64,000 nucleotides of DNA from Topomyia yanbarensis (lineage: Eukaryota > Arthropoda > Insecta > Diptera > Culicidae), in contig NC_080672.1 of the NCBI RefSeq assembly GCF_030247195.1, positions 94,436,113 through 94,500,112 on the forward strand. The letters are read 5' to 3'. Positions 14,690 to 60,099 of the stretch are shown here, in pieces. The translations under genes were made by a program, and so were the position numbers. Positions within the stretch are counted from its first letter, which is position 1. The number at the start of each line of letters is the position of its first letter. The notes below the pieces were generated by a model. It ran no database searches. It was not told the origin of the DNA and saw only the letters and a list, made by a program, of their open reading frames with translations.

Positions 14690-16450
14690 TCAGCACCAAA
14701 ATGTCGACCGCCACCATCCGACGATGAGTTTCCTGGTTTCAACAATGAACAGAATGGAAATAGCAATGAGGATAATGCCATTGCATCCGACGCTGGTGTC
14801 ATCGCACGAGTTAAATCGATTTCTCGCCAACGCCACCAGTTACTGAAGAAGGTACACTCAGGTTTTTTTACGCGGGGGATACGAGCCGCGTAAATGAAAA
14901 CCGCGTAAATGAAAACCGCGTAAATTTCAAAATCCGCGTAAATGAAAACCGCGTAAATTTCAAAATCCGCGTAAATGAAAACCGCGTAAATTTCAAAATC
15001 CGCGTAAATGAAAACCGCGTAAATTTCAAAATCCGCGTAAATGAAAACCGCGTAAATTTCAAAATCCGCGTAAATGAAGACCACTTAAATTTAAGAATCC
15101 GCGATATAGGGAACCTCATTGATGGGTACCGCGTAAATTCCAAAATCCGCGTAAATGAAAACCGCGTAAATTTCAAAAACCGCGTAAATGAAAACCGCGT
15201 AAATTTCAAAAACCGCGTAAATGAAAACCGCGTAAATTTCAAAATCCGCGTAAATGAAAACCGCGTAAATTTCAAAATCCGCGTAAAAAAAAACCGCGTA
15301 AAAAAATACCGCGCAAAAAAAAAACCGCGTATAAAAAAACTTGAGTGTACTTCGTATCCAAGAAGCTCTCGACAACCAGGAATTGGGAGTCCCGCATTTG
15401 AAAGTGTTTTAGAGCAACCTTCGTGCAGCTTGCTCCGAGTTCTCCAATTTCCATAATCAAATTTGTTGCTATTATCCCTGATGACGCAATGCCCCTCTAC
15501 GAAAACGTATACGTGCAATTCGAGCAGCTGTACAACATGGCATCAGCTGAAGTGGAATCTCGCATCATGCAGCATCAAGCTGACCTGACACCACAAATAG
15601 TAGTTAACCAACAACCACTGAAGGCACCTATTCCGGCGTTCGACGAAACTACACAGCATGGCCGAAGTTCAAAGCTATGTTCCGGGATGTTATGGCGCTT
15701 TCTCGAGATTCTGACGTAATTAAGCTATACCACCTCGACAAGGCTATAGTGGGTAATGCAGCCGGCGTTCTAGATGCGAAGGCAATAAACCAGGGAAATT
15801 AAGCTTTGAGGATATTGATGGAGAGATACGAGAACAAGCGAGTTTTGAAATCCATATCCGTGGACTTTTGATTTTTCGTCCGTATCAACGAACTGCGATA
15901 TCTTCTAAACGAGTGCACAAAACACGTGTAAAGTTTAGAGTACCAGAACCAGGAGATGTCTGGTATGTCTGAGCTGAATGTGGTCTACCTACTGACAGTT
16001 GCATTGGATAAATCAACCAGAAAACATTGGGAGCAGTCTCTTAAGCCTAGAGAGCTACCGAAATTTCAGCAAACGATGGACTTTCTGAAGTCGCATTGCC
16101 AAGTTTTGGAGATGCGAATCTGTTAGTTCCGGCACGAGTTCAAAGACGAATTCCGCCCAGAAAGCACATTCTTCGCAACCGAATCTCGTCAGCCAGCGAG
16201 CACATATTGCTACGTCAAATCAATGAAAAATGTGATTTTTGTGGTGGTCCACACCTGAATTATCAATGTGACAAGTTAAGCACTCTTTCCAGCAGCGAAC
16301 GGAAGGAAAGGGTGAGAGCAGCTGGAGTTAGCTTCAACTGCTTCAGGAAGGGTCATCGTTCGAACAACTGTACGTCATCCAAAAGCTGTCATAAATGCCA
16401 GAAGTGGCACCATACTCAGTTGCCCGAAAATGAGGCCACACCGAAACACG
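14690..16450 (+). pseudogene. BEL/Pao Gag with zinc knuckles
   Basis: After the MITE is set aside, the N-terminal coding line runs through RVKSISRQRHQLLKK into LRIQEALDNQ, then EFSNFHN. Further on LPTFDGRYEQWPKFK-type sequence is decayed to PIPAFDETTQHGRSSK (about 15630). The C-terminal part (16096-16623) has CDFCGGPHLNYQCDKL, then FNCFRKGHRSNNC and CHKCQKWHHTQLP, the three-knuckle pattern usual for BEL elements; the first Cys of the second knuckle is kept but its middle residues differ. Frameshifts and stops are present. Confidence 0.78.
14855..15347. mobile_element. TA-flanked MITE with internal 33-bp minisatellite
   Basis: 493 bp. The left end CACTCAGGTTTTTTTACGCG is the inverse of the right end, whose complement reads CACTCAAGTTTTTTTATACG. 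TA occurs on each side (14853-14854 and 15348-15349). Deleting the element and one TA restores the BEL gag frame exactly (LLKKV then LRIQEA). The core is a tandem array: alternating CCGCGTAAATGAAAA and CCGCGTAAATTTCAAAAT subunits, giving a 33-bp period over about 400 bp, nearly identical in the left half. The ORFs here simply translate the repeat. Confidence 0.88.
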
Positions 16451-24290: not shown

Positions 24291-24309
24291 GCTATCACAA
24301 ACATCCGAT

Positions 24310-24440
24310 TGTATGTCGTTTCCCGGAATATTATTTCCCAGGAAACCTTTTCCCGGAATATCATTTCCTGGAATGTGCCAGTTCCCGGAATATCGTTTCC
24401 CGGAATGTACCATTTCCCGGAATACCACTTCCCGGAACGT
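24310..24440. repeat. Tandem TTCCCGGAA array
   Basis: Six perfect copies of the palindrome TTCCCGGAA, plus diverged copies, at roughly 17-22-bp spacing, with units of the type TTTCCCGGAATATC / GTACCA. Reading frames across it are by-products. A related array is at 38325-38430. Confidence 0.8.
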
Positions 24441-24703
24441 ACTTTTTCTCGGTAATTTGTTATACCACAGACTTAACAGACATGACACTCAAATGTTCCA
24501 ACGAGTCGCAAAAATTTAACGGTCTTTTTAAAAATTTAGCATGACTGCTCAGTACTTTTCGGATTTGCCACGAGAGGCACGCATTTGTTGACATATGACA
24601 GGATAGAAAAAATCAAAAGCGCGCCACCGCACACTATTGAGCGCACGCAGTTGTTTTTGTTTTTATTAAAATTGTGGCAAACGAACGATTTTGTGTGATT
24701 TGG

Positions 24704-25600: not shown

Positions 25601-25912
25601 ATATCTTAGAACAACACCGGTGGGAAAACTTTCAGCTGAATGATTCACCTGGTAGATCCAAGAACCATGCCATATTGTCATCATACTACATTTCTTATTT
25701 ATACACACAGGCTGTTGGATATCTCTTAGCGCACAATACGCTCGGAAGCTGTAGTGATTCCCACTAACCGGCAGCACTGTTGTGTCTGTCCGTCGGACGT
25801 ACGAGTACAATAAATGGTTACTTCCTCGTGCACGCGCGTGTTTCCTTTCGGAGTCCTTACATTTTGGCGACGATTGGAGAAAAAAATATTAAATTCGTTG
25901 AGGAAGGCTGTA

Positions 25913-25978
25913 ATCAGGAATCAGAATATATTGGCTCAAATGGCACGTTCCCCGTACATAGTCGGGGATTTGTGCCTT
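25913..25978 (-). mobile_element. 66-bp 3' tail of the LOA-like LINE
   Basis: These 66 bases are the exact reverse complement of 37477-37542, the 3' end of the LOA-like LINE 11.5 kb away (no mismatch). It is an extremely 5'-truncated insertion in the untranslated leader of gypsy copy 2. The tail contains the small hairpin CCCCGACTATGTACGGGG. A target duplication is not evident. Confidence 0.85.
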
Positions 25979-27368: not shown

Positions 27369-29037
27369 TTGAAGTTGGGAATTCTGGAGATTCACGCAGA
27401 GGTGTTTTGTCTTCCAGGCAAGGAGAACTTAAAAGTGGGAAAGATGAAGAATTTACAGGTGAAACTACAAATCAACAAAGAGATAGTTCCAGTTCAGCAA
27501 CCATGTAGGCGTTTATCAATCTCTCTGCAAGACGTAGTCGAAGAAAAATTGGACGATCTGTTGAAACAGAACATCATCGAATTGGCACCCTTAAAGATTA
27601 CTTGGGCATCACCCTTGGTAGTTACCCTGAAAGATGGTGGAAAAAAATGTACGCCTGTGTGTTGACATGCGGATGGCCAACAAAGCCATAATTCCTGAGC
27701 GACACCCGTTACCCACATTCGATGAAATAATGCCTCACCTAGACGGTTGCAGATACTTTTCAAAAATTGACCTAGTGAAAGCTTTTCACCAGATCGAGCT
27801 TGCCTCTGATTCCCGCGAAATAACTACTTTTGTGACACCGAACGCATATTACCGTTACAAAAGATTGATGTTCGGAATGAACTGCTCCGCAGAAATATTC
27901 CAAAAGGAAATCGAGCGGGTTTTGAAAGGCTTGAAAGGTGTACTAGTGTTTATTGATGATATTCTCGTATACGCAAGGACGAAGAAAGAGCAGGACGTTA
28001 GAGTAGAACTAGTTTTGAAGCGGCTCGACGAACATGGACTGTCAATCAATCGCAAAAAGTCCGAGTTTGGGAAGAGTTCCGTGAACTTTATGGGTCATAC
28101 CTTATCAGAACAATTTATACTGCCAATGAACGATAAAATTAGTGCCGTCCGATCCTTCAGAAATCCGCAGAACGCCGCCGAGATGCGTAGTTTTTTAGGG
28201 TTAGTGAACTACGTTGGTAAGTTTGTCCCAAATCTCTCGGAAATGTCGACCACATTACGGCAAATGACAGTTCAGGGGGCTAAATTCGAATGGACAAATG
28301 AACGACGACGATGCTTCAAGAACATAAAAACTGCTTTAGCAAGCCCCAAGCACTTAGGATACTATAGTTCACAGAATCGTACACTGTTTATCACCGATGC
28401 CAGTGACAATGGGCTAGGTGCCGTCTTGGTACAGATCATTCACAACAAACCCCGAGTGATCAGTTACGCAAGCAAGAGCTTAACCCAAACGGAAAAGAAG
28501 TACTCGACGCTTGATAAGGAGGCTTTGGCCATCGCTTGGGCAGCCGAGCGATTTCAAATGTATCTAACTGGCCTGGAATTCAAGGTAATAACGGACCACA
28601 AGCCCTTAGTTGACATCTTCAGCGAAAAATCTTCTCCAAACAAGCGACAAGAAAGGTGGGTATTAAGGATGCAGTGTTTTCGCTATCGAATAAAACATGT
28701 TCCAGGGAAGACCAACATTGCGGATCCGTTGTCACGGCTGCCAGAAGAATTAAAATCTAAAATGTTCGATAAAGGTGCGGAGGAAGCACTGTATGCTATT
28801 GCGGAGGTTTGCAAGCCAGCCTCAGTAACGATGGATGAGATACAGTGCTCGCAAGCAGATACGGAGATACAAAAGGTTAGAAAGGCTCTACATGAAGATA
28901 AATGGGAATGCGATTTGAAACGGTACGCGGCATTCAAGGGCGAGCTATGCTTTGCAAACAATATACTGCTGAGAGGATCCAGAGACGTTACGAGAAACGG
29001 TTCTAAAGTTGGCACACATCGGTCATCCAGGTCGTGA
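27369..29037 (+). pseudogene. Gypsy copy 2 reverse transcriptase and RNase H
   Basis: A one-base frameshift at about 27645 separates the N-terminal piece (LDDLLKQNIIELAP) from a long frame with VRLCVDMRMANKAI, YFSKIDLVKAFHQIEL, and VFIDDILVYA (FIDD active site, about 27955). The RNase H follows with LFITDASDNGLGAVLVQ, TLDKEALAIAW and VITDHKPLVDIF. The frame runs to RGSRDVTRNGSK at 29037, where it shifts into integrase. Confidence 0.85.
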
Positions 29038-30076
29038 GAAGATGAAACAAAGAATGAGGATTGCGGTTTGGTGGCCTGGTATGGATGCTGACGCAGAGAA
29101 AACTTGTCGAGAGTGTTTTGATTACCAACTGGTTGCACCGTTCGATCCGCCGGAGCCTCTATGTATCCGGGACTTGCCAGCCGCTCCATGGGTTCACGTG
29201 GCAGGGGATTTTCTTGGACCATTACCGGATAATAGCTATGTGTTTGTGTTGATCGACCTCTACAGCCGATATGTTTTGGCTGAACCAATGACTCGTACTA
29301 CATCACGTGACGTGATTGGCTTTTTGACGACTATCTTTACTAGGATGGGACTTCCGCAAGTGATGACCTTCGATAATGCTAGGAACTTCTCAAGCCAAGA
29401 GATGAAAGACAATTGCATTGATCACGGGATCAAGTTGACTCACACTACTCCATACTATCCGAGTGCAAACGGCGAGGTCGAACGCCAAAACCGATCAATA
29501 TTGAAAATACTGAAAATAAGCAAACAGCAGAACACTAACTGGAAAGTTGCTCTTCAAGAATATCTATATATGTACTCTGTTACTCCACATTCTGTGACAG
29601 GTGTTTCACCGGCACAATTGATGTTCGGGAGAAGATTCCGAGACTTGATTCCTCACATCCAAATGCAAGTAATGGACCACCATGAAATGCGTGATCGGGA
29701 CCGAATGATGAAATACCAAGCAAAAGTCAACAGAGACGAAAAAGTTGGAGCGAAGAAGTCATTGGTGTCGGTTGGAGATGAGGTGTTAATGAAGAACATG
29801 TTACCGGAAAACAAACTCGCCTCCAAATTTATATCTACACCAGCGAAGGTAATCGAGCGACGTGGGAATAGCTTGACACTAGAAATTCCAAACGGACAAA
29901 CCTACAAACGCAACACATCACACGTGAAACCTTTAATACGGTCATCGACCACCGATAGTGTTATTCAAACTGATTTGACTCCACCGGCATCAGTAGTTCG
30001 AGAGTTCGCAATCCATGAAAGAGGAGATCGGTTTGGAATCTGCATTCAACTCGAAAGCCGCGATAAACTCTGTTAA
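29009..30076 (+). pseudogene. Gypsy copy 2 integrase
   Basis: 355 codons, intact in itself. It has the end of the HHCC zinc domain (HIGHPG, then CRECFDYQ), the core with AGDFLGPL (Asp), TFDNARNFSS (Asp) and YPSANGEVERQNRS (Glu), and a C-terminal GDEVLMKNMLPENKL segment also seen in copy 1. It is out of frame with RNase H by one shift. Closest in the window is the integrase of copy 1. Confidence 0.87.
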
Positions 30077-30499: not shown

Positions 30500-31343
30500 T
30501 GTACAAGAGGTAACACTTTTAAATTACATCATTTTCTTTCGAAAATGACCCACGTTAACGTTAAAACAGGCAAAAATCAATGCAAAGTCGCTCGCAATTT
30601 CACAACGGAAACCGAACAGCCTTAACGGCTTTCGTAGCAACATTAATGCTCTTTCATGGCTGTGGAAGAAACTGACAGAAGAGTTCGAGTTTGAACGTCT
30701 TTCTACCAACTTTCTCTGTCAGGATACGGTCGAGAATCTTTTTTCGGAAATCCACCGACGATGTGGTCATAACGATAGTCCGAATGCTTCACAATTTGCA
30801 GCGGCTTTCAAATATTCCTCTATAGCTGCAAAAAACAAAATCTCTGGAGCCAACTGTGAACAGGACGATGCTCAATGTGTTCTCGATGACGATTCTGCAT
30901 TTGATAAACACCAACCAACAAAAATAACTCAGTATCGCTATAAGTTGCTTCCTACTGAATTTGATGCTCGTAAGAGATACACGCCGCACGAATTAAATGC
31001 TCTTGTGTACATTGTTGGCGCTGCCGCGCGAAAACTACTTCAGCAATGTAAAAAACGTTTAGTTGCAGAGAAAGGCGAAGACGATTTGAACGACCGAATA
31101 TTGACATTCTCCAGGCTAAAAGATGGTAGAACATTACCAAACTCTAAGCTGTTCGAAATTGGACTTCTGGTGTACACTGTTTTTGTGCAAAGATTTACGA
31201 AGATGCTTTATCAGAACCGCAATAATGTAAAAAGTTGTATGAAAAGCTATTTGAACTTTGATTTATATAAGGACTATTTGTGTCTAAAATGCTTCAACAT
31301 ATTGGTTGATAAAATATTTAATACTCTTATTCAAAGCTTTTAA
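30500..31343 (+). pseudogene. P-element-like transposase, C-terminal part
   Basis: One continuous frame from about 30540 to the stop at 31341. It contains LNGFRSNINALSWLWKKL, then LCQDTVENLFSEIHRRCG followed by HNDSPNASQF. The last two match the P/THAP9 block (NQDxLENFFxxIRxxGGxNDNP). The C-terminus (NALVYIVGAAARKLLQQ, DYLCLKCFNILVDKIF) is also P-like. The role in the family is DNA cut-and-paste. With the N-terminal half broken and a gypsy element between, it is not functional. No inverted ends for the P-like element were found. Confidence 0.78.
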
Positions 31344-32168
31344 GTCTAAGGTAAAGAAAGTCTTCATTTAAAATAGTGATCACATTTGATTCATATAATA
31401 TTTTTCTCAGAGTCATGTCTGGTAAGTCTGTGGGTAAACTAACAAACGAAAACAATTTTCATCTCCGAATCCAATTATAACATTTTGGTCGACAGTTTGT
31501 TTCAATATGATTCGACTTCTGCTAACCTGCAATATAAATCTTCGATGTGGCGTTTTGAAATGAGCGTGTAGCACCTTCTACATATAGGACGATAAAGAAA
31601 TTTAAAAAAAATGCATTTAAAATTCGATTACAACTGTTTTTCGTATGGGATGACTTGCTTACTTGCCCTCATAAGGTTTGTGTGCAACATGGGCCATAAT
31701 ATTGCACATGAAGGTCAAAAAGTTGATTCAAATTATTGAGATGTATGAAAGAGGAACATGGCGGCCTTTTACACTGTTTTCGTTTGGCTTCAGGATGCAG
31801 CCATTTCTGCAATGACAGGTACTAACGTCTTAGGCCGGACTAAACTCAGGCCTAAAATCAAAGATAGTACCGTGTGGCGGTACCAACTAGATTAAAGCTT
31901 ACCGCTAGAGTACCAGTAATTGGTTATCATAAAAATGTTTCAAAGATGGTCGCATTTCGAGGCGTTCTAAACTGAACGTTAAGGATTTACACCATTCTAG
32001 AGCACGGCATACGCAGATTTCAGATATTTTTCTATACGTAATAAAGAGATGAATCAAGATCCCAAAAGATGGGATTCATAATACGAGTTTTAGATAATTT
32101 GTTCAGCATTTTCCGGCCAGTGTGATTTTTTTTTAAAATTCGGGCCCGAAATCTATCTCCTGTAATGT
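31344..32168. other. Unassigned AT-rich DNA
   Basis: No gene or element ends recognised; it lies between the P-like relic and the left 574-bp repeat, within the inferred Pop2 intron 1. Confidence 0.4.
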
Positions 32169-32742
32169 TTGATCTAGTGCCAAAAACAAAAGCTTTTATC
32201 CAATTCCATAGAACGATAGCAAGCGGCTTACATAGGATTTTTTCGATACTTTAATTTTACGCGAAACGCTAAAAATGTCATTAAAATCAACACTCCATCA
32301 TTTATAGAATAGCTATCCGTCTTTTAATTTCATTGCTTTCGTTTCTCTTAGTCTTGAATTTACCGAAAATAGCCAATAAAATTGATACAGACATAATTTA
32401 TTTAAAAAAAAAAACTAAAATCATGCTGTGAATCTACAGTGCTGTATTATGCTTTTCACCAAAGATTACCACGCGACGGAATCGATTCAAAATAGTAAAA
32501 GGATTGAAAACTTTTTAACTGAATCCGCAAAGTTTGGAACAAATATCAGGCAAAATATAGAGCCTGTTGGTCAGGAATTAGACGGTCATGAATTTATTCA
32601 CCCCTTCATTTCCGGCGGTGGGAAAATTGGAAAGTGTTTGTTACTATTTTAGTACTTATTTAGTTTATTGATATTCCACCCCTTGGGGTGCTTTTTATTC
32701 CCCACTCGATTTTTTAAAATCCCCCAAGTTTCTTTTTGGTTC
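32169..32742. repeat. Long direct repeat flanking the LOA-like LINE (left copy)
   Basis: 574 bp that recur at 37542-38117 with about seven substitutions plus homopolymer length changes (roughly 98-99 percent identity by eye). It begins TTGATCTA and ends CTTTTTGGTTC, which is not TG...CA as in an LTR. It contains a 74-codon frame (32428-32652) of unknown meaning, present in both copies. Confidence 0.85.
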
Positions 32743-35700
32743 CAAATTTCTTTTTGGTTTTACCCGGGCCCCGTGGTGGTGGAGGAACGCTACGTGGGAA
32801 GCTGAGCTGCAAGCAACCGGGCGGGTCATAGGTGGTGGATAATGCTTAATCGCGATAGCAACTAGTTGTGATTTGCGACCCGAACCAGCAGCGGGGGCTG
32901 ACTGCGGGTGTGGTAGGACGAGGTAGTGGGCCCTATGCGTTCTAGGCCTAAATACCACATGCCCTAAAGCAGCCCTGACACGGCGAGCCAGCGCCGCCTT
33001 TAAATAAGCGCTTAGCCCAAATCCCTCTCAATCCCTCTCCTACCGTTATCCTTTCTTCCTTCTGCGGCTGTTCGCCCATCTAAATATGGAAGCTGTTCTT
33101 CAATGTCAGCTTCTTTCACCGAACAGCCTAGATAAGCCGTGTAGTGTCGGTAGTGGTTGTTTCAACCGGCTAAGAATTACACTACGGACTACCTGTTTCA
33201 GTGGTAAAAATCTACCAAACAGGGAACCCCAATTCCATAGTGTCATGCGACCCGTGCTATGGGTAAAATTGTTGAGGGGGTTTAAAACATTCTCAATGGC
33301 GAACGGAGCCTAGGAAGAGTTGGGCGAACTCCCCAGTATGCTGCATTACGCAGCGGAACGTTCACTCTACACACCGATTTTTTTTCACCGATGATCCACT
33401 TAATTTTGCCGAATTTTTGTTGGCTGGGGGTTTGCTGAGACTCTCGGCTGATGGTAGTTCGGTGAAGTTTTGTTGAGTTTCGATTATCAAATTTCGATGT
33501 GTACAGATGAACCTGCCCAGAGGCCGTGTGGTATCCGGCCTAGAATTGAGCCACTGGAGTCCTGCTCCCATGTCGTAGGAGGCGACTGAAAGTAGGAGAC
33601 CCTAAGTCAAGGTGTAGTTCTGTGCCGAGGACTTAATGACTGGAGGGTCTAAAATATGCCAATCGCGCACGGAGCATTTTGGGTTTTGCCCTTACTGTGT
33701 TATGGGAATCTCTGACACAGTGGACCATTATTTTCTTCTTCTTTTCGCAAAATCGTGGGAATCAAATGATCATGTCCCATTTAAACCTGATATGGCTCGC
33801 TAAATGCGTTAACATCCCAACTCGCTTGGTGTCCTCTAGTTGTTGTGCAATTTGTGTTGGAGATGAAATGTACAGTTCTCTAATCAACAATGGTTAGAAT
33901 AGCACAAATCAATCTCCAACATAAACGTACAACAACTATGAATTTATCTCGACTCATGTAGGAAGGTAAAGCTTCCATAGCATTGATTCAAGAGCCGTAT
34001 TTCCATAAAGGAAACTTCTATTTTGGAAAGTTACTTAACACTGCCTGCATTGCTTACAACAAGACAGGCATGACTAACCCACGTGAAATGCCTCGTGCTT
34101 GCATTCTTACAAATAAGGCTATTGACGCGTGTCTCAAATTGGAGCTCACAACTCGCGATATCTGTGTTGTCACAGTTACACTGACTGTCGGAAACGTAGA
34201 CAAAAAATATATATATATTGTTCAGCATACCTACCGCATAACGAATCATCTCCTTCTGATGATTTCAAAAGCGTTGTATCATATTGTAGCAGAAATGGGC
34301 TTCCGCTCATTGTCGGCAGTGATGCGAATGCTCATCACATCATTTGGGGCAGCTCAGACATCAATCTGAGAGGCTCTGAACTGATGGAGTACATAAGTAG
34401 TACAAATCTCCATATTCTGAATGTGGGAAACCGACCAACTTTTGCGAGGTCTGGGAGGGAGGAGGTTTTAGACATAACACTTTGCTCTGATAGAATTTTG
34501 CATGAACTGGGAAATTGGCAGGTTCCAAATGAAACTGAACCGTCTCTATCCGATCATAAATATATATTTTTCGATCATTTTGATGTCACTTTCAATGTGG
34601 TGACATATCGTAATCCTAAATCTACAAACTGGGACCTCTTTTTGGAAAACTTGGCGACTAAATTTCATGGATATTTTCCAACAATTAGTCAACTAGACGA
34701 CTTAGATGACTTCGTGGATACGACAAACTCATTCATATTAGCATCCTACGAAGAAGCTTGTCCGCTTCGTACTGTTAAATCGACTAGGGGAACCCCTTGG
34801 TGGAGGGCTGAGCTTGAAAGAATGAAGAAAATTATGAGAAGAGCTTGAAACCGGCGTCAGCATGATGACTCCAGGGCTTTCAGGTCAGCTCGTAGTGCAT
34901 ATAAGAAATTTCTTAGATCTGCAGAACGGGCTGGCTGGCAAACCCTATGCACTAATGTCTCTAGTTTGAACGAGGCTAGCAGATTAAATAAAATTCTCTG
35001 CAAATCGAATGATTTTCAGATGAACTCCTTAAAAACCAGAGATGGTGTTTATGTGACGGACGAAAAAGATGTTCTTAATTGTCTCTTCGACACACACTTT
35101 CCAGGTTGTATCGATCCGGAGTTGAACAATGTTCACAGATCTCATTCTGGTGATTCGGACTCGTGGGCGTTAGCACGCACATTGGTTTCCACTGAATCGG
35201 TCAAGTGGGCAGTTGACAGCTTTGCTCCATACAAATCACCCGGAAAAGATGGAATACTTCCCGTGCTACTGCAAAAGGGATTTGATATTCTTAAACATGT
35301 CTTGAAAAAGATTTTGCTTTCCAGTCTTGCTACCGGGTATATCCCGAAAGCATGGCGAGAAATAACTGTTAGATTTATTCCCAAAGGGGGGCGCTCGAGC
35401 TATGAAGAAGCCAAGAGTTTTAGGCCTATCAGCTTAAGTTCATTTCTTCTGAAAGCTTTGGAACGGATAATCGATCATCACATCAGGAACGTTAGTTTAG
35501 TTGAATATCCACTGCACAAAATGCAACATGCATATCAGTGTGGGAAATCCACGATCACTCTGCTTCACGATGTTGTTTACAACATTGAGAAAGCCTTCTC
35601 GCTCAAGCAATCTAGCTTGGGTGTATTCCTAGATATTGAGGGTGCTTTTGACAATGTGTCCTTCCAGTCTATTCTGGAAGCGACGCGCGGTCATGGGATA

Positions 35701-37541
35701 CCTGCATGTATCTCAGATTGGATAAACGCAATGCTTAGTAACCGCATACTTTTCTCGTCACTGCGACAGGCTGAGATACGGAAGTTGAGTATTTGCGGTT
35801 GTCCTCAGGGCGGCGTTCTGTTACCTTTGTTATGGAACTTAGTAGCTGACGGCTTGTTGAAGAAACTCAATGAGCTTGGATTTCCAACCTACGGGTTTGC
35901 TGACGATTACCAAATACTAATTACTGGATTTTGCATCGGAACAATCTTTGACTTAATGCAACAGGCATTAAGAGCTGTCGAACAGTGGTGTCGACAAGTT
36001 AAACTATCAGTTAACCCAAGCAAAACTTCAATGGTTCTTTTCACGAAGAAGCGAATAGCAACCGGGGTTCGTCCCTTGCAGTTCTTTGATTCTGAGCTAC
36101 TGTGTGCAGATCAAGTCAAATACGTTGGAGTTATATTGGATTCCAAACTGAATTGGTCTGCTCACATTGAGTTCAGAGTCAAGAAAGCGTGCATGGCCTG
36201 CTGCTCTTGAGGCACTTCTAAATATCAAACCATTACACATACACTTAAAACAAGAAGCACTATCATGTGCATACAGACTGCAGGTTACTGGGCTTTGGAA
36301 CAGTAATCATGTTGATCTTGCTACCAGTCATACACGATTGTGGTCACAAATGGTTACATGGGGTGAAGATATTCTTGCTCCCAGCGATATTACACTCACT
36401 TGTGGTTTTCCTTGCAGGACATTCCATGTGAAGATTCCCTCTAGAGAGGAGTGGTTGTCTGGCTTTATGCAAAGACAACAACAAACGCAAGTGGTTTGTT
36501 ACACTGACGGTTCTCTGATGGAGGGACGTGCTGGTGCTGGTGTCTACTGTCGTGAAATGAGATTGGAACAATCTCACTCACTAGGTAGATACTGTACTGT
36601 ATTCCAAGCAGAAATCTTTGCGATTATGTGCGGGGTGCAATCGGCCCTTCAACTGAGTTTGTCCGGCAGAGTTATAAACTTCTGCTCCGATAGTCAGGCT
36701 GCAATCAAGGCCCTTAGCTCAGACAAATCCCGGTCCAAGCTAGTGATCGCGTGCCGAACCCAAATCGAAGAACTAAGCATTGTCAACACTATCTACCTTG
36801 TCTGGGTGCCCGGACATTGCGGTATTACTGGAAATGAATGGGCTGACGAATTGGCTAGGGCAGGTTCAGCGATTGACTTCGTTGATCCTGAGCCCGCGCT
36901 GCCAATTTCGACAAGTTGGATAAGGGAAAAAATACGGTCCTGGGCTTCGTCCGAGCACCGCAATTATTGGAGAAATCTACAAACGTGTCGCCAAACAAAG
37001 GCGTTTCTAGAACAACCATGCCCAGTGGTTTCGAAAAATCTCTTACATTTTTCGAAGCTCCACTGCGGTATGCTGACCAGGATTTTAACCGGCCACTGCA
37101 AACTCAATTATCACATGGCAACTATTCAGCGCGCTGAGTGTTTTTCATGTGATCTTTGTGAATCCGACTACGGAGCCTCATATCATCTGATATGCAACTG
37201 TCCAGCGGTAGCGCAATTGCGATTTCGAGTCTTCAGCCGTCCTTATATAGACGAAACCATGTTTGGTCGACTGAAACTCAGAGACATACTAAAGTTTCTT
37301 ATCCAATGTGGTAAAGAGCTTTAGGCTTATTCGCAGGCAAGTTGAACTACTTGTGAGTTTAACTTACCTGTTGTTTATTTTTGTTTTGTGCTGTTATTTT
37401 TCCCACCCTTCCAATTCTACTTCCCCACACCTCCTTGTCCTTTCCTTCCGCTCAGGAAGTGATGAAAACACACGGCAAGGCACAAATCCCCGACTATGTA
37501 CGGGGAACGTGCCATTTGAGCCAATATATTCTGATTCCTGA
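32743..37541 (+). mobile_element. LOA-like LINE, about 4.8 kb
   Basis: A 1.15-kb untranslated, GC-richer leader precedes an ORF2 with APE endonuclease, reverse transcriptase, RNase H and a CCHC end. No ORF1 protein was recognisable. RNase H plus the endonuclease start MVRIAQINLQHKR fit the LOA clade (Lian/Loa/Bilbo type). The 3' UTR ends in the hairpin CCCCGACTATGTACGGGG and ATTCTGATTCCTGAT, not poly(A). Both ends abut the 574-bp direct repeats exactly. The right junction repeats TTTCTTTTTGGTT once more just inside the 5' end. Confidence 0.85.
33893..37324 (+). pseudogene. LOA-like ORF2 (endonuclease, RT, RNase H)
   Basis: Starts MVRIAQINLQHKR; a stop after LSRLM, frame changes near 34200, a TGA at 34846 and a frame change near 36190 break it. 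Endonuclease: ALIQEPYFHK, then VGSDANAHHIIWG and LSDHKYIFF. RT: FIPKGG, FLDIEGAFDNV and YGFADDYQILI (Asp pair at about 35900). RNase H: VCYTDGSLMEGRAGAGVY, FCSDSQAAIKAL and WVPGHCGITGNEWADELA at about 36500-36860. C-terminal CDLCESDYGASYHLICNC zinc motif at about 37150. Recent enough to read well but inactive. Confidence 0.85.
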
Positions 37542-38117
37542 TTGATCTACTGCCAAAAACAAAAGCTTTTATCCAATTCCATAGAACGATAGCAAGCGGC
37601 TTACATAGGATTTTTTCGATACTTTAATTTTACGCGAAACGCTAAAAATGTCATTAAAATCAACACCCCATCATTTATAGAATAGCTATCCGTCTTTTAA
37701 TTTCATTGCTTTCGTTTCTCTTAGTCTTGAATTTACCGAAAATAGCCAATAAAATCGATACAGACATAATTTATTTAAAAAAAAAAAACTAAAATCATGC
37801 TGTGAATCTACAGTGCTGTATTATGCTTTTCACCAAAGATTACCACGCGACGGAATCGATTCAAAATAGTAAAAGGATTGAAAACTTTTTAACTGAATCC
37901 GCAAAGTTTGGAACAAATATCAGGCAAAATATAGAGCCTGTTGGTCAGGAATTAGACGGTCATGAATTTATTCACCCCTTCATTTCCGGCGGTGGGAAAA
38001 TTGGAAAGTGTTTGTTACTATTTTAGTACTTATTTAGTTTATTGATATTCCACCCATTGGGGTGCTTTTTATTCCTCACTCGATTTTTTAAAATCCCCCC
38101 AAGTTTCTTTTTGGTTC
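37542..38117. repeat. Long direct repeat flanking the LOA-like LINE (right copy)
   Basis: Second copy of 32169-32742, beginning exactly where the LINE 3' end stops and ending where different flanking DNA (AAACCCAAAAGTCG) starts. Differences from the left copy are scattered single bases and run lengths (for example TAGTGCC/TACTGCC, ACTCCATC/ACCCCATC). Confidence 0.85.
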
Positions 38118-38324
38118 AAACCCAAAAGTCGTTCGTAATCTGTTCATATAATGATCAATCTAAATTATTTTTTCTATCATCGCGGTATCGAATGGGTTAA
38201 ATATTTAAAATGACAGTTTCGCAATCATGTCGCTATCTAGTTTTGCTAATTTTCAGTGATGAACACAATAAATACTCAAAAATTTAAAAATATTTTCAAG
38301 CAACTTTTCATGTTCTAAACGGTT

Positions 38325-38430
38325 TTCCGGGAAATGATACATTCTGGGAAATGGTTTTCCGAGAAATGGTACATTCCAGGAAACGATATTCCGGGATATG
38401 GTACATTCCGGAAAATAATTTTCCGGGAAA
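38325..38430. repeat. Second TTCC/GGAA array
   Basis: TTTTCCGGGAAATG-type units recur about six times at 17-22 bp, with ACATTCC linkers; most units are imperfect (TTCCGGGAA, TTCCGAGAA, TTCCAGGAA). It is the same family as 24310-24440, on the opposite strand. Confidence 0.7.
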
Positions 38431-38484
38431 TGACGTACAACCTGCAGACGCAAATAGCGTCAAGAAATTGCTGGGTGTGATCTG

Positions 38485-41593: not shown

Positions 41594-42652
41594 GCACGAT
41601 AGCTATACACAGATGCCATTTCAAAATGGACCATAAAAGTAATACCAAATAAATACATATTGTATTTGGTAATACTATATGTTAGAAAATATGTAACCGA
41701 CAGTTATTTCTTATCATTAGTCTAAAGAACATACCATACATTATTTCTCATTGAACATACTCTCCTTAATCCCAATAGGCAAGGTTCTTTGTCATTTGGC
41801 GTGAAGTACAAACAGAAAAACAAACAAAAACGCAGTTGCAGTTTTTGATGAGCTTAAATATTGTTAAAAATGTATGAAATTAGGCGTGTTCTTATTCAAG
41901 TACATTTTGTTATATAAGGCTCAATCCAAATTGAAATAAAAAATAAATTTAATTCTCTTGAATAAAGCTGTCTGGAAAGTTTGCTATCACTTTTTATTCG
42001 GGACTTTTCTCAATGAGAAGTAGGTGCCCATTAGACTAAAAATGATCCTAATTAGCGAGCACAACACCTTTTGGGTTCTTTTTGAGGTCCCAAATGACTG
42101 TGCAAATTATGCGAGCGATCGGTTGCTCCCCGGACGTGCGAAATGGTATCAAAGTTTTGTAGAAATTAGTATGGGAACATGTACTTTGTTGCTTATCCAC
42201 TCGTACAGATCACTATTTCACGCAACTTGAAAAATTAATGGAATAAAAGTAAGAGTAAAAAATAATTGAAGAACCAATGGAATCAAAGAATACCCCAATA
42301 TTGTATATTTCATTGGAAACGAGCCATTCAGTCATTTTGATGCGACGAATTGAATTGGCGCATTTGATAATAAATGCTCAAAAACGTCGAAAAATATGTA
42401 TTACCCAAGTTTAATGTGTGCTAATTATTTAGTTTAACTGAATTTGTCAATAAAACTGACTGAAAACTGTGCTTCTAAAGCTTCTGGTTTCCAAATGTTT
42501 TATTTACAGAAAATTGCATCACCTTTTATTAAAGTGTTATTCATCCCATAAGAAATACATTGCGACGAATCGTGCGCCGAATCTTGTTTCGACGAAAAAT
42601 AATCGTCGCGTCTTCTTTGGAAAAGTACGGACTATAATTATAATTATTCACC

Positions 42653-42953
42653 TTAGGGACCATCCATAAATGACGTAGCGTTTTTGAGCGATTTTTAACG
42701 CCCCCCTCCCCCATTATAGCATTTCGTCACAAACTTCTAAATACCCCCCTGGTAATTACGTAGCTTGACGGTAACTCTACCCCGCCTTGTCACCGCATTT
42801 TTTTTTTAAATAAAAAACGGTGTTCGTTATTCCCCTTTAAAAAAGATACGTAGCATGACATGACCCCCTACCCCCTGTCGTCACACATCATCACAAAATA
42901 CAAAACTCCCCCTCCCCCATATAATGCTACGTCATTTATGGCTGATCCCTTAA
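42653..42953. mobile_element. MITE with ATCCATAAATGACGTAGC ends
   Basis: Left GGGACCATCCATAAATGACG and, inverted, right GGGATCAGCCATAAATGACG. The flanks carry TTA on the left and TTAA on the right. The interior is rich in CCCCCTCCCCC and AAAACGGTG words. This motif family is widespread in insect genomes as a short repeat (memory, not checked). Confidence 0.78.
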
Positions 42954-48321: not shown

Positions 48322-51300
48322 TTAAACTTGGACATCAATGGTTTTCAAAAAGATATAGATAAGAAAAATATAGGGGTGGTCACGGCTTGCCAGGACGTCC
48401 CGGACTGGCACATAGGGTGATCTACCTCGGGCCCGAAGGGAATCTATTAGTTGGGACCTGGCAACAGAGTACTCTGAGCACAGCCAAACAACATGCTCGA
48501 TGTCGTGATAGCCGTTCTCACAAACACAATGATTATTTTCAGCAAGCCCTATACGACGGAGATGCGCGTCAAACGAGTAATGGTTGGACATGATCCTTGA
48601 CATCGTACGAATAAAGCCCCGGTTCACATCCAACCCCTTAAACCAAGCATTCGTTGATACCTTCGGGATAATGGAATGTAGCCACCGTCCCAGATGCCCA
48701 TTGCTCCATGAGGTTTGCCAACTATCGAGCGTCCTCTGACGAGAGATACTGAAAAATTCGTTGAAGCAAATTGGTCTTTCGTAAGTGTCGCCTTCTAATG
48801 CGCCCACCTTGGCTAAAGAGTCCGCCTTCTCATTGCCCGCAATAGAACAATGTGACGGGACCCAAACCAAGGTAATCTGGTAAGATTTTTCAGATAAAGC
48901 ACTCAGATATTCCCGTATTTTCCCCAGGAAATACGGTGAGTGCTTTCCAGGCTTCGCCGCACGGATGGCCTCAATGGAGCTGAGACTATCCGAAACGATG
49001 AAGTAATGGTCTGAGGGCAGGGTGTCAATGATCCCGAGAGTATACTGAATGGCAGCTAATTCTGCGACGTAAATTGAAGCAGGATCATTGAGTTTGAATG
49101 AGGCAGCAAGATTTTCGTTGAAGATACCGAAGCCTGTGGACCCGTCGAGAATTGATCCGTCAGTGTAGAACATTTTGGCGCAGTCGACTTGATGGTATTT
49201 GTTATAGAAAATATTTGGGACCACTTGTGGGCGAATATGATCCGGAATTCCACAAATCTCTTCCTTCATGGATGTATCGAAAAATACAGTTGGATCAGAA
49301 GTATCTAAGAGATGAGCACGGTTGACGTTATATGTAGATGAATTGATGTTCTGTGCCATGTAATCGAAGTACAAGGACATGAATCGGGTCTGAGAATTAA
49401 GCTCGACAAGCCTTTCGCAATTTGCAATCACCAATGGGTTCAGAATATCGCATCGAATGAGCAATCGATATGAGAGGTCCCAGAATCGATTTTTCAGCGG
49501 AAGAACGCCCGCCAGCACTTCGAGACTCATCGTATGGGTCGAGTGCATGCAACCCAAGGCAATACGCAAGCAACGATACTGGATTCGCTCCAGTTTGATG
49601 AAGTGTATGTTCGCAGCGAAGCGAAAGCAGAAACATCCGTACTCCAACACTGATAATATCGTTGTTTGGTACAACCTGATTAGGTCTCCTGGATGGGCAC
49701 CCCACCATGTTCCAGTTATTGTACGGAAAAAGTTGATCCTTTGTTGGCACTTCTGTTTCAGATACCTAATGTGACATCCCCAGGTACCTTTAGAGTCGAA
49801 CCATACCCCGAGATATTTGAATGTTGAAGCCTGAGCAATAGTTTGATCCATTAATTGAAGCTGTAGTTGCGCTGGTTCACGCTTTCTAGAAAATACGACT
49901 AGCTCAGTTTTCTCCGTGGAGAACTCGATACCCAGTTGGAGAGCCCATGCAGACAAATTGTCCAAGGTATCTTGCAGTGGTCCTTGCAAGTCGACGGCTT
50001 TAGGACCTGTAATAGAGACCACACCGTCATCTGCAAGCTGCCTTAGCGTGCAGGAATTGACAAGACATTCGTCAATGTCATTCACGTAAAAATTGTAGAG
50101 GAGAGGGCTTAGACAGGAGCCCTGGGGAAGGCCCATGTAGCTAAATCGTGATGTCGATAAATCGCCATGCGAGAAATGCATTTGTTTTTCAGACAACAGG
50201 TTTAGCAAAAAGTTATTTAAAATTGGCGAAAGACCATGCTGGTGCAACTTCTCATAAAGTATGTTGATCGAAACTGAATCGAAAGCCCCCTTAATATCCA
50301 AGAATACTGATGCCATCTGCTCTTTGTTAGCATATGCCATTTGAATTTCTGTTGAGAGCAACGCAAGGCAATCGTTCGTCCCTTTGCCTTTGCGGAAGCC
50401 AAATTGTGTATCTGACAGTAAGCCATTTGTTTCGACCCAATTGTCGAGCCGAAACAGGATCATTTTCTCGAACAACTTCCGGATACAGGACAGCATTGCA
50501 ATCGGACGATACGAATTGTGGTTGGAGGCTGGTTTTCCTGGTTTTTGGATGGCGATGACCCTCACCTGTCTCCAGTCATGTGGGACAATGTTACCCTCAA
50601 GAAACCTATTAAATAAATTCAACAAGCGTCTTTTGGCAGAGTATGGCAGATTCTTCAATAAGTTGAATTTAATTCTATCTGGCCCCGGGGCTTTATTGTT
50701 ACATGATAAGAGAGCAAGTGAGAACTCCACCATCGTAAACGGTGTTTCGTTCGCGGTATTGTAAGGCGACGCGGCGCGGTAGATTTTCTGTGCCGGGGCG
50801 GAATCCGGACAAACCTTCTTGGCGAAATCGAATATCCAACGGTTTGAATATTCCACGCTCTCGTTAGTACTGTTTCGGTTTCGCATACGTCGGGCCGTGC
50901 CCCAAAGAGTGCTCATCGATGTTTCTCTTGTTAACCCGTCGACAAACCGGCGCCAGTAACTGCGTTTCTTAGCTTTCATTAAATTTTTCATTCGCTTTTC
51001 TAATATCGCGTACACTCGATAACTAGCAACTAACCCGTCGTTCCGGAAGGTTTTATACGCGGCAGCTTTCTCCGCGTACACGTCTGAGCACTCTTTGTCC
51101 CACCACGGGTTGGGAGAACGTTTTTGGGTGTTCACGTCGGGTACTCGTTTCGTCTGAGTTTGAATCGCGCTATCGAGAATCGAGTTGGACAAAAACTTAT
51201 ATTCTTCCTCCGGGGGAAGTATCTGTGTTGAATCGATAGTTTTGGATATCTCAGCAGCGTAGCTCTTCCAATCAATGTTTCGTGTGAGGTCATAGGGAAC

Positions 51301-52008
51301 ATTGATTGGTGTCGATGGTCTTGAACCAGTGGTGATTGCAATTACAATTGGTAAGTGGTCACTACCGTGGGGATCAGATATTACCTTCCACTTGCAATCT
51401 AACCGTAGTGATGTCGAGCATAAAGATATGTCCAGTGCACTTGCTTGCGCAGGTGGTCTAGGAATTCGTGTCATTTCCCCTGTGTTCAGAATTGTCATAT
51501 TGAAGTTGTCACAAAGGTCTTGAATTGTCGAAGATCGATTATCGTCGTATAGACAGCCCCACCCCGTACCGTGAGAGTTAAAGTCTCCAAGAAGCAGGCG
51601 GGGCGAGGGAAGGTGTTCAATCACGTTGGAGAATCTTCGATATCCCATCATGGCCCTAGGAGGAATGTAAATAGAAGCAATGCAAAGATCTTTGCCTTTG
51701 ATTGTTGTTTGACAAGCGACAACTTCAATGCCTGGCGTCGAAGGGAGGTTGATTCGATTGAAGGAGTAGCACTTTTTGATCCCTAAAAGTACCCCCCCAT
51801 ATGAGTCTTCTCGATCCAAGCGGATAATGTTAAAATCGTGGAAGTTGAGGTTTATATTAGAAGTTAGCCATGTTTCACATAGGGAAAATGCATCACAATG
51901 ATTGTAATTTAGCAAGTGTTTTAATGAATCAATTTTGGGGATAATACTTCTGCAGTTCCACTGTAAAACAGTGATCAGATCCCTGATTCCGTCTAATAAG
52001 TTAGCCAT
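48322..52008 (-). CDS. I-like LINE ORF2: endonuclease, reverse transcriptase, RNase H
   Basis: 1228 aa, uninterrupted. APE-type endonuclease 1-220 (QWNCRS with Asn18, CETWL with Glu45, GDFNSHGTGW with Asp142 and Asn144, SDH at 216-218). Reverse transcriptase about 430-720, with APGPDRIKF, FLDIKGAFDSV, MGLPQGSCLSPLLYNFYV and QLADDGVVS (LADD in place of the usual YADD, around 657-662). RNase H about 940-1070: MFYTDGSILDGSTGFGIF, VAELAAI, IVSDSLSS, WVPSHCSIAGNEKADSLA. A C-terminal Cys/His motif (CVCENGYHDIEHVVWLC) closes it. It makes the nick and the first-strand cDNA in target-primed reverse transcription. The start ATG overlaps the ORF1 stop (ATGGCTAA). Confidence 0.92.
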   Translation of the reverse strand: MANLLDGIRDLITVLQWNCRSIIPKIDSLKHLLNYNHCDAFSLCETWLTSNINLNFHDFNIIRLDREDSYGGVLLGIKKCYSFNRINLPSTPGIEVVACQTTIKGKDLCIASIYIPPRAMMGYRRFSNVIEHLPSPRLLLGDFNSHGTGWGCLYDDNRSSTIQDLCDNFNMTILNTGEMTRIPRPPAQASALDISLCSTSLRLDCKWKVISDPHGSDHLPIVIAITTGSRPSTPINVPYDLTRNIDWKSYAAEISKTIDSTQILPPEEEYKFLSNSILDSAIQTQTKRVPDVNTQKRSPNPWWDKECSDVYAEKAAAYKTFRNDGLVASYRVYAILEKRMKNLMKAKKRSYWRRFVDGLTRETSMSTLWGTARRMRNRNSTNESVEYSNRWIFDFAKKVCPDSAPAQKIYRAASPYNTANETPFTMVEFSLALLSCNNKAPGPDRIKFNLLKNLPYSAKRRLLNLFNRFLEGNIVPHDWRQVRVIAIQKPGKPASNHNSYRPIAMLSCIRKLFEKMILFRLDNWVETNGLLSDTQFGFRKGKGTNDCLALLSTEIQMAYANKEQMASVFLDIKGAFDSVSINILYEKLHQHGLSPILNNFLLNLLSEKQMHFSHGDLSTSRFSYMGLPQGSCLSPLLYNFYVNDIDECLVNSCTLRQLADDGVVSITGPKAVDLQGPLQDTLDNLSAWALQLGIEFSTEKTELVVFSRKREPAQLQLQLMDQTIAQASTFKYLGVWFDSKGTWGCHIRYLKQKCQQRINFFRTITGTWWGAHPGDLIRLYQTTILSVLEYGCFCFRFAANIHFIKLERIQYRCLRIALGCMHSTHTMSLEVLAGVLPLKNRFWDLSYRLLIRCDILNPLVIANCERLVELNSQTRFMSLYFDYMAQNINSSTYNVNRAHLLDTSDPTVFFDTSMKEEICGIPDHIRPQVVPNIFYNKYHQVDCAKMFYTDGSILDGSTGFGIFNENLAASFKLNDPASIYVAELAAIQYTLGIIDTLPSDHYFIVSDSLSSIEAIRAAKPGKHSPYFLGKIREYLSALSEKSYQITLVWVPSHCSIAGNEKADSLAKVGALEGDTYERPICFNEFFSISRQRTLDSWQTSWSNGHLGRWLHSIIPKVSTNAWFKGLDVNRGFIRTMSRIMSNHYSFDAHLRRIGLAENNHCVCENGYHDIEHVVWLCSEYSVARSQLIDSLRARGRSPYVPVRDVLASRDHPYIFLIYIFLKTIDVQV

Positions 52009-53382
52009 CGAAGGATACGATCGCTGTAAGGAGGGGCCATTGTTCAGTCAACTGTTTTAAAAATGTTCTTACTGTTGGTAGAATAGCAACCAGCAAGCTT
52101 TTCATAGGATCGGTAATGTTGAAAGCTGTGAATATCCAGTCCACAATGTCAGAAAATTTAAGGAATCCCGTTTTAGGTTGAGTTTCTGACTGTAAAATTG
52201 GAGCACTTGGGATTTTTGGTGCCCCGGGGAGTGCTGGGAACTCCTGGTTGTATCTCAATTTCCCAAAACCAGGAGGTATTATCTTCGGATTTGTACCAGC
52301 ACTTCCAGTTGATGAATTATTTTTATTTTGTACCCTTGTTTGGGACAACCTAGGACCCTTACGAGGAAGTTCAGGTGAGTTTTGATTAGGTCTTTTCCTA
52401 GAGTTTCCAAGCGGAGCCAAAGAATGCCCCTCGCAAGGGTCGTTAGAGGCGTTATCGTCAGTTGACAAGAGAGCGAATGGGTTTTCGGAGATAAGTGGAA
52501 CAGCTCTTTTAAGCATTTCTGCGTAAGAGCGTCTGGAGCGATCTTTGGCGGATCGCTTCAGTTTATCCGCGCGAAGTTTGTACGTTGGGCATGTCAAAAG
52601 TGCATGCGGATTCTCCCCACAGTAAACACACTTCTCAGCGGGCCTACTGCAAGTATCATCCGCATGGCGTTCCCCACATTTACCGCACCGTTGCTTGTTG
52701 CTACAGTAGGTGGCCGTGTGACCTAGCTGCTTGCAATTGGAACAATTCATGACCCGCGGTACAAACAGGCGTACAGGTAGACGAGCTCCTCCCACTTCAA
52801 CGTAGCTCGGAAGTGCAGATCCGGCGAAGGTTACGCGAAACGAGTCTGATGGATAGTAATTACCATCTTCGATGGACTTTGAGTGCAATTGCTTGCACTC
52901 CAAAATCTTAACTGATTGAAGGTTAGGGTCCTTAAAGCGGCCAGCCCCATCATTCATCAGATCATCGACAGTTAGACCCGCATCACTTACCACACCGTCG
53001 ATCTCCACATCACGAGAAGGGATGTAGACGCGATACTCCAGCGTAAAGAGGCTATTGCTAACGATATCATTGGCCTGTTTCAAGTCAGTAACGACTACGC
53101 GCAGTTTATCTGACTGAACCTTTTAATCTCGGTTACGGCCGAGTAACGTTTTGTCAGCTCCCGTGCAACAGTTATGCTGTTTAACGGTTTATTTTTGGGC
53201 CGAAAGTATACCACCCAAGGACCAGCGGATCCATCCTGGTAAACCTTGACTCGGGGGGGCTGTGAGACATTGGGGGAAAGTGGGGGAAGTGGATCGACCA
53301 TAACATTATCTGTCTCAGTATCAGATATACGTTCTTCTTCATAATATTCCTCTTCGGAGGGTGATCCTTCTGTTTGTTCCAT
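52001..53382 (-). pseudogene. I-like LINE ORF1 (CCHC Gag-like), one frame break
   Basis: Two adjoining frames: 53095-53382 (95 codons, ATG at 53382: MEQTEGSPSEEEYYEEER, acidic) and 52001-53083 (360 codons). A single-base shift near 53115, between EIKRF and SDKLRVVV, separates them. The second part holds an RNA-binding-like fold (KILECKQL...FRVTFAGSALPSYV) and three zinc knuckles: CSNCKQLGHTATYC, CGKCGERHADDTC, CVYCGENPHALLTC. In the family it coats element RNA. The stop TAA overlaps the ORF2 start. Either one indel or a deliberate shift; the indel is likelier. Confidence 0.82.
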
Positions 53383-58927: not shown

Positions 58928-59133
58928 CGAAAGCACAAAAAATCTTATCCGCTTGTATTGAATTCGACCCCCAAAAATAGATAAGCTGTATCGTTATCAG
59001 TGCTTGTACACCGGGTATCTAAGCGTAGCTCCAAATTTCTAATCCGTTCCAGTTGCCTTTGAACAAATGGAGTGAAAATACCAGCCTTCCATATATCTCA
59101 ATTTTTTTTAGTGAAAAGAACCGAAGCAATTCA

Positions 59134-60099
59134 ATGGGTCAACACGTTTCGCGAACTGATTTCGAGTGGGTTTACGATGAACAGCCACACATTGGCCGAC
59201 GCGACGCCATGCTAAAGAAATATCCACAAATTAAGAACCTGTACGGGCCGGACCCGGCGTTCAAGTATATCGTTTCTGCGATGGTTCTGACACAAGTCTT
59301 GATGCTGTATGTAATGCAGAATCAGTCCTGGACAATGATCACCTTGGTGGCGTATTGTTTCGGAGGAGTGATCAATCATTCTCTAATGTTGGCAAATCAT
59401 GAAATTTCGCACAACATGGCGTTCGGGTATGGTCGACCATTGGCAAATCGATACTTTGGAATGTGGTGCAATCTACCCATCGGAATTCCAATGTCGGTGT
59501 CGTTTAAAAAGTATCACACACTGCATCATAGATACCTGGCTAATGAGAAACTTGATCCAGATGTACCCAGTATTCTAGAAGCGAAGCTATTCTGCAACAC
59601 ATTTGGAAAGTTCATATGGGTCATTTTGCAGCCATTGTTCTATGCATTGAGACCATTGTTTGTAAACCCACTTCCGGTGGAGAAACTGGAAATCATCAAC
59701 ACAGTCGTACAAGTCATATTCGATGGTCTCGTGGTGTTAATATTCGGATGGAGGATGCTCGCCTATTTGCTGATCGGTTCTTTTCTAGCGATGGGTATTC
59801 ATCCGGTTGCTGGTCACTTCATCGCCGAACACTACATGTTTGCGAAAGGTTTCGAAACGTACTCCTACTACGGCTCTCTGAATTCGATCACGTTCAATGT
59901 CGGATATCACAACGAACATCATGACTTCCCTGCGATTCCTGGCAGCAGGCTACCTGAAGTGAAAAGAATAGCCCCAGAGTTTTACGATACTATTCCACAG
60001 CACACGTCCTGGGTTCGGGTGATGTACGACTTCGTGATGGATCCTGCGGTTGGTCCATATGCACGGATAAAGCGAAGAGCTTTGCAAAAAGCGGGCTAG
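59134..60099 (+). CDS. ifc: Sphingolipid delta-4 desaturase (DES1 / infertile crescent)
   Basis: 321 aa, usual length for the family (about 320). The enzyme turns dihydroceramide into ceramide in the ER membrane. The start ATG at 59134 gives MGQHVSRTDFEW, an N-myristoylation-type opening shared with the fly and vertebrate orthologues; the bases just before it (ATTTTTTTTAG) look like an acceptor of a leader intron, so coding is in one exon. Three His clusters are intact: HEISH (about 90), HTLHH (about 129), HNEHH (about 259). Hydrophobic spans: AMVLTQVLMLYVM, MITLVAYCFGGVINH, VVQVIFDGLVVLIFG and LLIGSFLAMGIHPVAGHF. An AATAAA at 60445 is a likely 3' end. Confidence 0.95.
   Translation: MGQHVSRTDFEWVYDEQPHIGRRDAMLKKYPQIKNLYGPDPAFKYIVSAMVLTQVLMLYVMQNQSWTMITLVAYCFGGVINHSLMLANHEISHNMAFGYGRPLANRYFGMWCNLPIGIPMSVSFKKYHTLHHRYLANEKLDPDVPSILEAKLFCNTFGKFIWVILQPLFYALRPLFVNPLPVEKLEIINTVVQVIFDGLVVLIFGWRMLAYLLIGSFLAMGIHPVAGHFIAEHYMFAKGFETYSYYGSLNSITFNVGYHNEHHDFPAIPGSRLPEVKRIAPEFYDTIPQHTSWVRVMYDFVMDPAVGPYARIKRRALQKAG

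Follow-up and report, generated by a model that had tools for sequence, protein, structure and literature searches.

An apparent 574-bp target-site duplication around a LINE of the mosquito Topomyia yanbarensis, and a LINE family in which long duplications are frequent

The window is a stretch of 64,000 nucleotides of the Topomyia yanbarensis genome (C3:94436113-94500112), and the genome searched is the 1.168 Gb assembly of 1044 contigs. The window contains a LINE on the plus strand that is enclosed by two direct copies of a 574-bp sequence, beyond which a dispersed host repeat extends in either direction. The features of this locus, together with a small second piece of the same LINE family, are given below in window coordinates.

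31906-32168, plus strand: left flank, part of the dispersed host repeat, which runs unbroken into the duplicated segment in paralogues
32169-32742, plus strand: left copy of the putative target-site duplication (TSD; 574 bp), 98.8% identical to 37542-38117 and single-copy in the paralogous empty sites
32743-32762, plus strand: filler at the 5' junction, for the most part repeating the final bases of the duplication (CAAATTTCTTTTTGGTT) and then reading TTA; its length is 17-20 bp, according to the end point chosen for the duplication
32763-37541, plus strand: LINE copy with broken reading frames, its 5' end complete as judged from other copies
34126-34848, plus strand: endonuclease (apurinic-type) piece of ORF2 (PF14529, E 7.6e-22)
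34849-36210, plus strand: reverse transcriptase piece of ORF2 (PF00078, E 2.4e-35)
36152-37324, plus strand: RNase H piece of ORF2 (PF00075, E 2.6e-14)
36198/36199, no strand: deletion point, where the window copy lacks about 211 bp present in the other copies that extend that far
37542-38117, plus strand: right copy of the putative TSD, from repeat comparison and paralogue alignment
38118-38319, plus strand: right flank, in which the host repeat carries on; unbroken from the duplicated segment in eight of eight aligned paralogue rows and also by BLAST
25912-25978, minus strand: 67-bp piece from the 3' end of another member of this LINE family, 100% identical to 37477-37543, with no flush repeat within 12 kb

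The element is placed among the LINEs by its endonuclease and reverse transcriptase, by the absence of long terminal repeats and by flanking repeats that are not common between copies. Its domains follow the order endonuclease, reverse transcriptase, RNase H, which we take to mark the LOA clade (and some other clades), and the original prediction, which called the element LOA-like, holds for this domain content, the extent of that comparison. A named mosquito relative is an Aedes albopictus protein with 71% identity over 36% of the query, and the LINE protein gave no match among viral contigs, a comparison that may omit records close to the genome of the window. The reading frames of the window copy are interrupted by a stop at 34846-34848 and by a frame change near 36.2 kb, the site of the gap of about 211 bp. 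The start of complete copies elsewhere in the genome coincides with CCCGGGCCCC, which corresponds to window position 32763 (the CCCGGG start), or falls a few bases from it, and 32743-32762 is therefore filler and not LINE. Of the limits proposed originally, 32743-37541, the 3' end at 37541 stands and the 5' start moves to 32763. The 3' end (...TTCTGATTCCTGA) is common to all 30 copies that were cut out on the basis of 3' similarity, many of which continue with a further TTCCTGA or part of it, whereas 5' ends are spread along the element, which indicates frequent 5' truncation.

The filler overlaps a period-18 tandem repeat at 32724-32759; it copies the last part of the duplication, altered in a single place, and then reads TTA. 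The 13-mer TTTCTTTTTGGTT occurs just three times on the two strands of the window, at 32729, 32747 and 38104, and so the second short copy that had been noticed just inside the 5' junction is indeed present. Its attribution to template switching is plausible; comparable fillers derived from the end of the duplication are seen by eye at one further family copy (L031, 11 bp) and, more weakly, at another (L035, 5 bp).

The window contains several other features. Gypsy-like reverse transcriptase and integrase ORFs (PF00665 and PF17921 on 28973-30073, the rest by eye) and a TNP-like RNase H fragment (PF21789) occupy 27631-30076 and 30549-31343, just left of the host repeat, and the 67-bp LINE piece at 25912-25978, which seems to lie in the leader of a Gypsy-like element, is truncated close to the foot of a predicted hairpin. 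A further LINE-like element lies on the minus strand at 48322-53122; its open frame of 1241 aa is preceded by an ORF carrying zinc-knuckle-like motifs (by eye), and diverged fragments of it are found at 4323-7049. A single-ORF sphingolipid delta-4 desaturase (DES1) gene at 59131-60099 shares 86% identity with that of Uranotaenia lowii, and only 72% with a second DES1 attributed to T. yanbarensis. Finally, a coding-like tandem repeat with a 33-bp shift (RVNENRVNFKI) that is open on both strands is located at 14886-15331.

The two repeat copies, 32169-32742 and 37542-38117, are identical in 569 of 576 aligned columns and differ by five substitutions and two one-base gaps, in agreement with the roughly seven differences first estimated. 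The LINE adjoins the right copy at its 3' end with an ambiguity of 0-2 nt and is separated from the left copy by the 17-20 bp of filler, and both copies are thus flush with the element when the filler is counted with the junction, as the original prediction held. The flanking sequences outside the two copies were compared and differ from each other, also as stated there.

A genome search with the 574 bp returned 72 matches among the best 40 of 1910 first-look candidates. In paralogues the left flank (from 31906 or 31938) leads into a single 574-bp stretch that passes directly, without an intervening LINE, into the right flank beyond 38118. The left flank runs unbroken into this stretch in L003/L004/L009, L006, L008/L016 and L014, and from 31938 onwards in L011, L012 and L015; in L011 the right flank is interrupted by a later insertion. 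In a multiple alignment of eight paralogue rows from seven loci the right edge is crossed in all eight and the left edge in six, the rows of L010 and L013 starting inside the duplicated stretch. Identity over the duplicated stretch is 88-94%, with 78% for the partial L013, and the LINE sequence has no match in the loci around the other host-repeat copies (L003-L021, 102 kb, partly overlapping). Because homology crosses both edges, the 574 bp are not the unit for which they had been taken but a slice, with arbitrary limits, of a larger dispersed repeat. The notion that a repeat unit always precedes this LINE, which would have spoken against a TSD, was likewise dropped, as other LINE copies are flanked differently and the repeat, dispersed only as part of the larger one and single in the aligned paralogues, occurs at loci free of the LINE. 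Although they are other loci and not alleles of the window site, paralogues that carry both flanks, one slice and no LINE can be regarded as natural empty sites, so that on this comparison the 574-bp repeat is to be read as the extraordinarily long TSD that was suspected. When polarised against the paralogues, three of the five substitutions fall on the left copy and one on the right, while one is ambiguous; changes on both copies are expected for sequences that were equal at birth and then drifted, and make an assembly duplicate, the other objection that had been foreseen, unlikely.

On C1 (L017-L019, C1:83335000-83358000) the host repeat forms a giant palindrome of at least 22 kb overall, with arms of several kb that are 99.7% identical over 3062 bp, and inverted pairs with a spacing of 13-33 kb are seen among its other copies too. 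A related minisatellite is present in opposite orientation at window positions 24309-24456 and 38317-38433, which suggests that the host-repeat copy in the window may be an inverted pair too. At L009 (577-7062; C3:212794500-212803000) another host-repeat copy contains a 3246-bp tandem duplication with 99.9% identity that is either recent or an assembly duplicate.

The LINE family was surveyed in 33 copies for which both junctions could be read, namely the window copy, the 67-bp piece, 26 copies found by 3'-end similarity and five found by 5'-end similarity. From the best 40 of 1638 first-look candidates of the 3'-end search, ten without a locus were left out and 30 were cut; among these L022 is the window itself (counted once), and three were dropped, L038 having the flanks of L037, L030 being nested in a related LINE and L047 having its 5' end outside the stretch. 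The 5'-end search supplied six from the best 40 of 1827 first-look candidates, of which L096 was dropped as the LINE 3' end was not found in its stretch. An automatic rule called 14 of the 33 positive, with L046 as 26 bp, and L031 and L026 were added by hand because of later insertions. In sum, a duplication flush with both LINE ends is present in 16 of the 33 copies, at lengths of 21-1002 bp with a median of 190 bp and 11 copies above 100 bp. The original prediction holds for this locus and, against these counts, was too modest for the family. TSDs of 5-20 bp are typical of LINEs, without being strictly defining, and the 16 duplications all exceed this range:

L044: 1002 bp
Window copy: 574 bp
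L031: 369 bp; left copy with a later insertion, by hand; the least alike pair (95% and 86% in two parts)
L035: 362 bp; pair with a large gap
L051: 320 bp
L092: 223 bp
L027: 214 bp
L046: 213 bp, inferred from 26- and 24-bp pieces; left copy lacks 163 bp; complex
L045: 167 bp
L043: 159 bp
L026: 121 bp; by hand, later insertion just inside the LINE
L098: 78 bp
L034: 77 bp
L090: 35 bp
L039: 33 bp
L040: 21 bp

If L046 is counted as 26 bp, the median becomes 163 bp and the number of copies above 100 bp becomes ten. The duplicated sequences differ between copies, and there is accordingly no shared flanking unit. Most of the longer pairs diverge by 1-3% (L031 by 5% or more), and five pairs (21, 33, 35, 78 and 121 bp) are identical. 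Duplications are found in seven of ten full-length versus nine of 23 truncated copies, a difference that is not significant (Fisher p 0.14). At L026 the LINE is preceded by a 360-bp gap that corresponds to a younger insertion some 13 bp into the LINE, by eye a short inverted-repeat element with related sequence at window 42651-42950, and for this reason the 121-bp duplication is taken as flush. L046 and L047 (C1:128744999-128748653) are two family copies placed back to back with 50 bp between them; these 50 bp consist of the 26- and 24-bp pieces, which in the downstream flank are separated by 163 bp. L045/L067 (C2:47362190-47369990) is a LINE inside an imperfect palindrome, which accounts for flanks that show both the 167-bp duplication and inverted repeats.

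In seventeen of the 33 copies no long duplication is seen over the 0.7-12 kb tested: L023, L024, L025, L028, L029, L032, L033, L036, L037, L041, L042, L048, L049, L050, the 67-bp piece, L088 and L094. The distance tested, given as the longer flank, reached 12 kb at the 67-bp piece and 5 kb at L029, L042 and L049; it was about 0.7-0.8 kb at L088 and L094, and most copies had 1.5-3.7 kb. An apparent 4.4-kb duplication at L029 turned out, when the right flank was extended, to be an older repeat (88-92%) flush with neither end; repeats between the flanks of L032 and L037 are not flush either, and L049 has a 25-bp piece of its right flank near the 5' junction and no duplication within 5 kb, so that all four were counted as negative. 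An exact-match test for short flush repeats gave 8 bp at L033 and 6 bp at L028 (both near-flush), 5 bp at L024 and the 67-bp piece, and no match in the 13 remaining negatives. As the longest match was 8 bp, no TSD of 9-20 bp is seen in the 17 negatives. Such short matches fall within the range of swapped flanks: of 1056 pairs with flanks exchanged, 81 give at least 6 bp, 11 of them at least 8 bp, and the longest match is 9 bp. Very short TSDs, or TSDs with a mismatch, may nevertheless be present in negative copies, with L028 and L033 as near-flush candidates. Swapping left and right flanks in 756 pairs from 28 copies yielded no flush repeat of 30 bp or more. The long duplication is therefore a frequent property of the family and not a universal one, and copies without it may be insertions that were repaired with a deletion or rearrangement.

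A control insertion is provided by a palindromic host-repeat copy on C1, one arm of which carries a different element with a 547-aa reverse-transcriptase ORF (PF00078), presumably an RTE-like LINE. By eye its TSD is AAGCTGTTCACATT, 14 bp, and the other arm of the palindrome serves as the empty site. Ordinary TSDs are thus made in this genome, as far as one insertion can tell.

Several other explanations for the repeats can be weighed against these data. The 574-bp copies as the LTRs of an LTR element deserve next to no credence; direct repeats of LTR size do surround a reverse transcriptase, but the copies lack TG/CA termini, as had been noted from the start, the four interior pieces scanned are of LINE type (endonuclease, reverse transcriptase, RNase H) with no integrase, and other copies of the element have different flanking repeats or none, so that terminal repeats do not travel with the element. 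It is also very improbable that a 574-bp tandem duplication existed beforehand and that the LINE landed at its junction. Since the empty sites are paralogues and not alleles, an older tandem in the window's host-repeat copy is formally conceivable, and the host repeat does form tandem duplications, such as the 3246-bp one at L009. The LINE would, however, have had to hit within a few bases of the junction, a coincidence that would need to recur at about 15 other loci whose repeat lengths are unrelated, and the duplicated stretch is single in the aligned paralogue rows. Just as little probability attaches to duplications that arose later, when recombination or gene conversion acted around the inserted LINE, or that are errors of the assembly. 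Young repeats assemble poorly and the L009 tandem (99.9% identity) could be of either origin, but both sides of the LINE are flush at 16 loci, the divergence of 1-3% in most of the longer pairs is unlike that of assembly duplicates (five pairs, of 21-121 bp, being identical), and the window pair has accumulated changes on both copies.

The host as the cause is a stronger competitor, if still an unlikely one. A mosquito with weak nucleotide-excision repair or a similar defect could resemble repair-deficient human cells, and in the available part of the report on these the lengths for L1 in XPA, XPC and XPD deficient cells are similar to those found here (PMC5223499). Against such a general defect, another retrotransposon of the same genome, albeit in a single insertion, duplicated 14 bp of its target, and the empty site for comparison is clean.

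The preferred reading is that the LINE inserted by target-primed reverse transcription with a distant second break, which gave the 574-bp TSD, and that its family often does the same; we put the probability of this at about 0.88. In target-primed reverse transcription the length of the duplication equals the distance from the bottom-strand nick to the top-strand break that primes the second strand. At the window locus the bottom strand would have been nicked at 32168/32169 and the LINE RNA copied from this nick, while the top strand would have been broken or primed about 574 bp downstream instead of about 15 bp. Fill-in of the 574 bp between the breaks on both sides would produce the TSD, and the 5' end would be joined via a short filler copied from the top-strand end. 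Of this, the duplication, the single-copy paralogous sites, the lengths at other copies and the filler are observed; the order and strand of the breaks, the fill-in and a cause in the element, not in the host, are inferred. The first step of insertion looks normal, since 3' junctions are regular and in the 12 positive copies inspected the duplication starts at the LINE tail. The variable distances of 21-1002 bp in about half of the copies suggest in turn that second-strand cleavage is loosely coupled to the first nick or uncoupled from it. On the simplest reading the LINE protein would not make or enforce a close second cut, other breaks being used with fill-in and a short templated filler. 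A bolder and tentative version, which we hold to be possible and somewhat less than even in its chances, is that the family no longer makes a nearby second cut of its own and uses host top-strand breaks 20 to 1000 bases away, for example the gaps between lagging-strand fragments at a replication fork. If so, TSDs of around 200 bp would be the normal signature of the family and their lengths would record the positions of the breaks.

Parallels are described in the available parts of several published sources. A TSD of 10-20 bp is given as usual for this class of LINE, with R9 at 126 bp (PMC6895275), and three Drosophila LINE-like elements have median TSDs of 11-25 bp (PMC8090852). R9 of the rotifer Adineta vaga resembles the mosquito LINE in that an exceptionally long duplication is a property of the element; it is, however, R2-related and inserts in ribosomal DNA with 126 bp (PMC6895275), whereas the mosquito LINE has an apurinic-type endonuclease, scattered sites and widely variable lengths. 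Zebrafish ZfL2-2 in chicken DT40 cells likewise made a long duplication in a wild-type background, a single one of 1228 bp in 25 insertions, the other 24 having target alterations of at most 20 bp (PMC2666801). Similar lengths are made by L1 in human cells deficient in nucleotide-excision repair, where 57-91% of insertions, depending on the cell line, have duplications above 100 bp and some of several kb, compared with at most 10% in HeLa, and where insertion is proposed by the authors to be completed from a distant nick; that system consists of a marked L1 in cultured mutant cells, whereas the mosquito LINE is a natural family with 11 of 33 copies above 100 bp (PMC5223499). Extremely long duplications have also been seen with truncated L1 in HeLa cells (PMC2912911). 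Drosophila R1 shares variable second-strand cleavage with extra nucleotides and duplicated target at the 5' junction, but its duplications are 2-17 bp or are replaced by a 9-bp deletion (PMC2718515). Our literature search, whose coverage leaves out most subscription journals and which is thus weak evidence of absence, found no natural LINE family with routinely long TSDs. Long TSDs are already known as exceptions and from repair-deficient human cells, and the mosquito LINE is ordinary in its proteins and 3' end and unusual in how it finishes insertion.

Cutting and priming of the second strand is the least understood step of LINE insertion. An abundant family with closely similar copies that often skips the 5-20 bp spacing offers many readable records of this step, and its protein can be compared with those of relatives that cut close by. 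Overall, LINEs of this kind can duplicate hundreds of host bases per jump and leave behind direct repeats that are able to recombine later.
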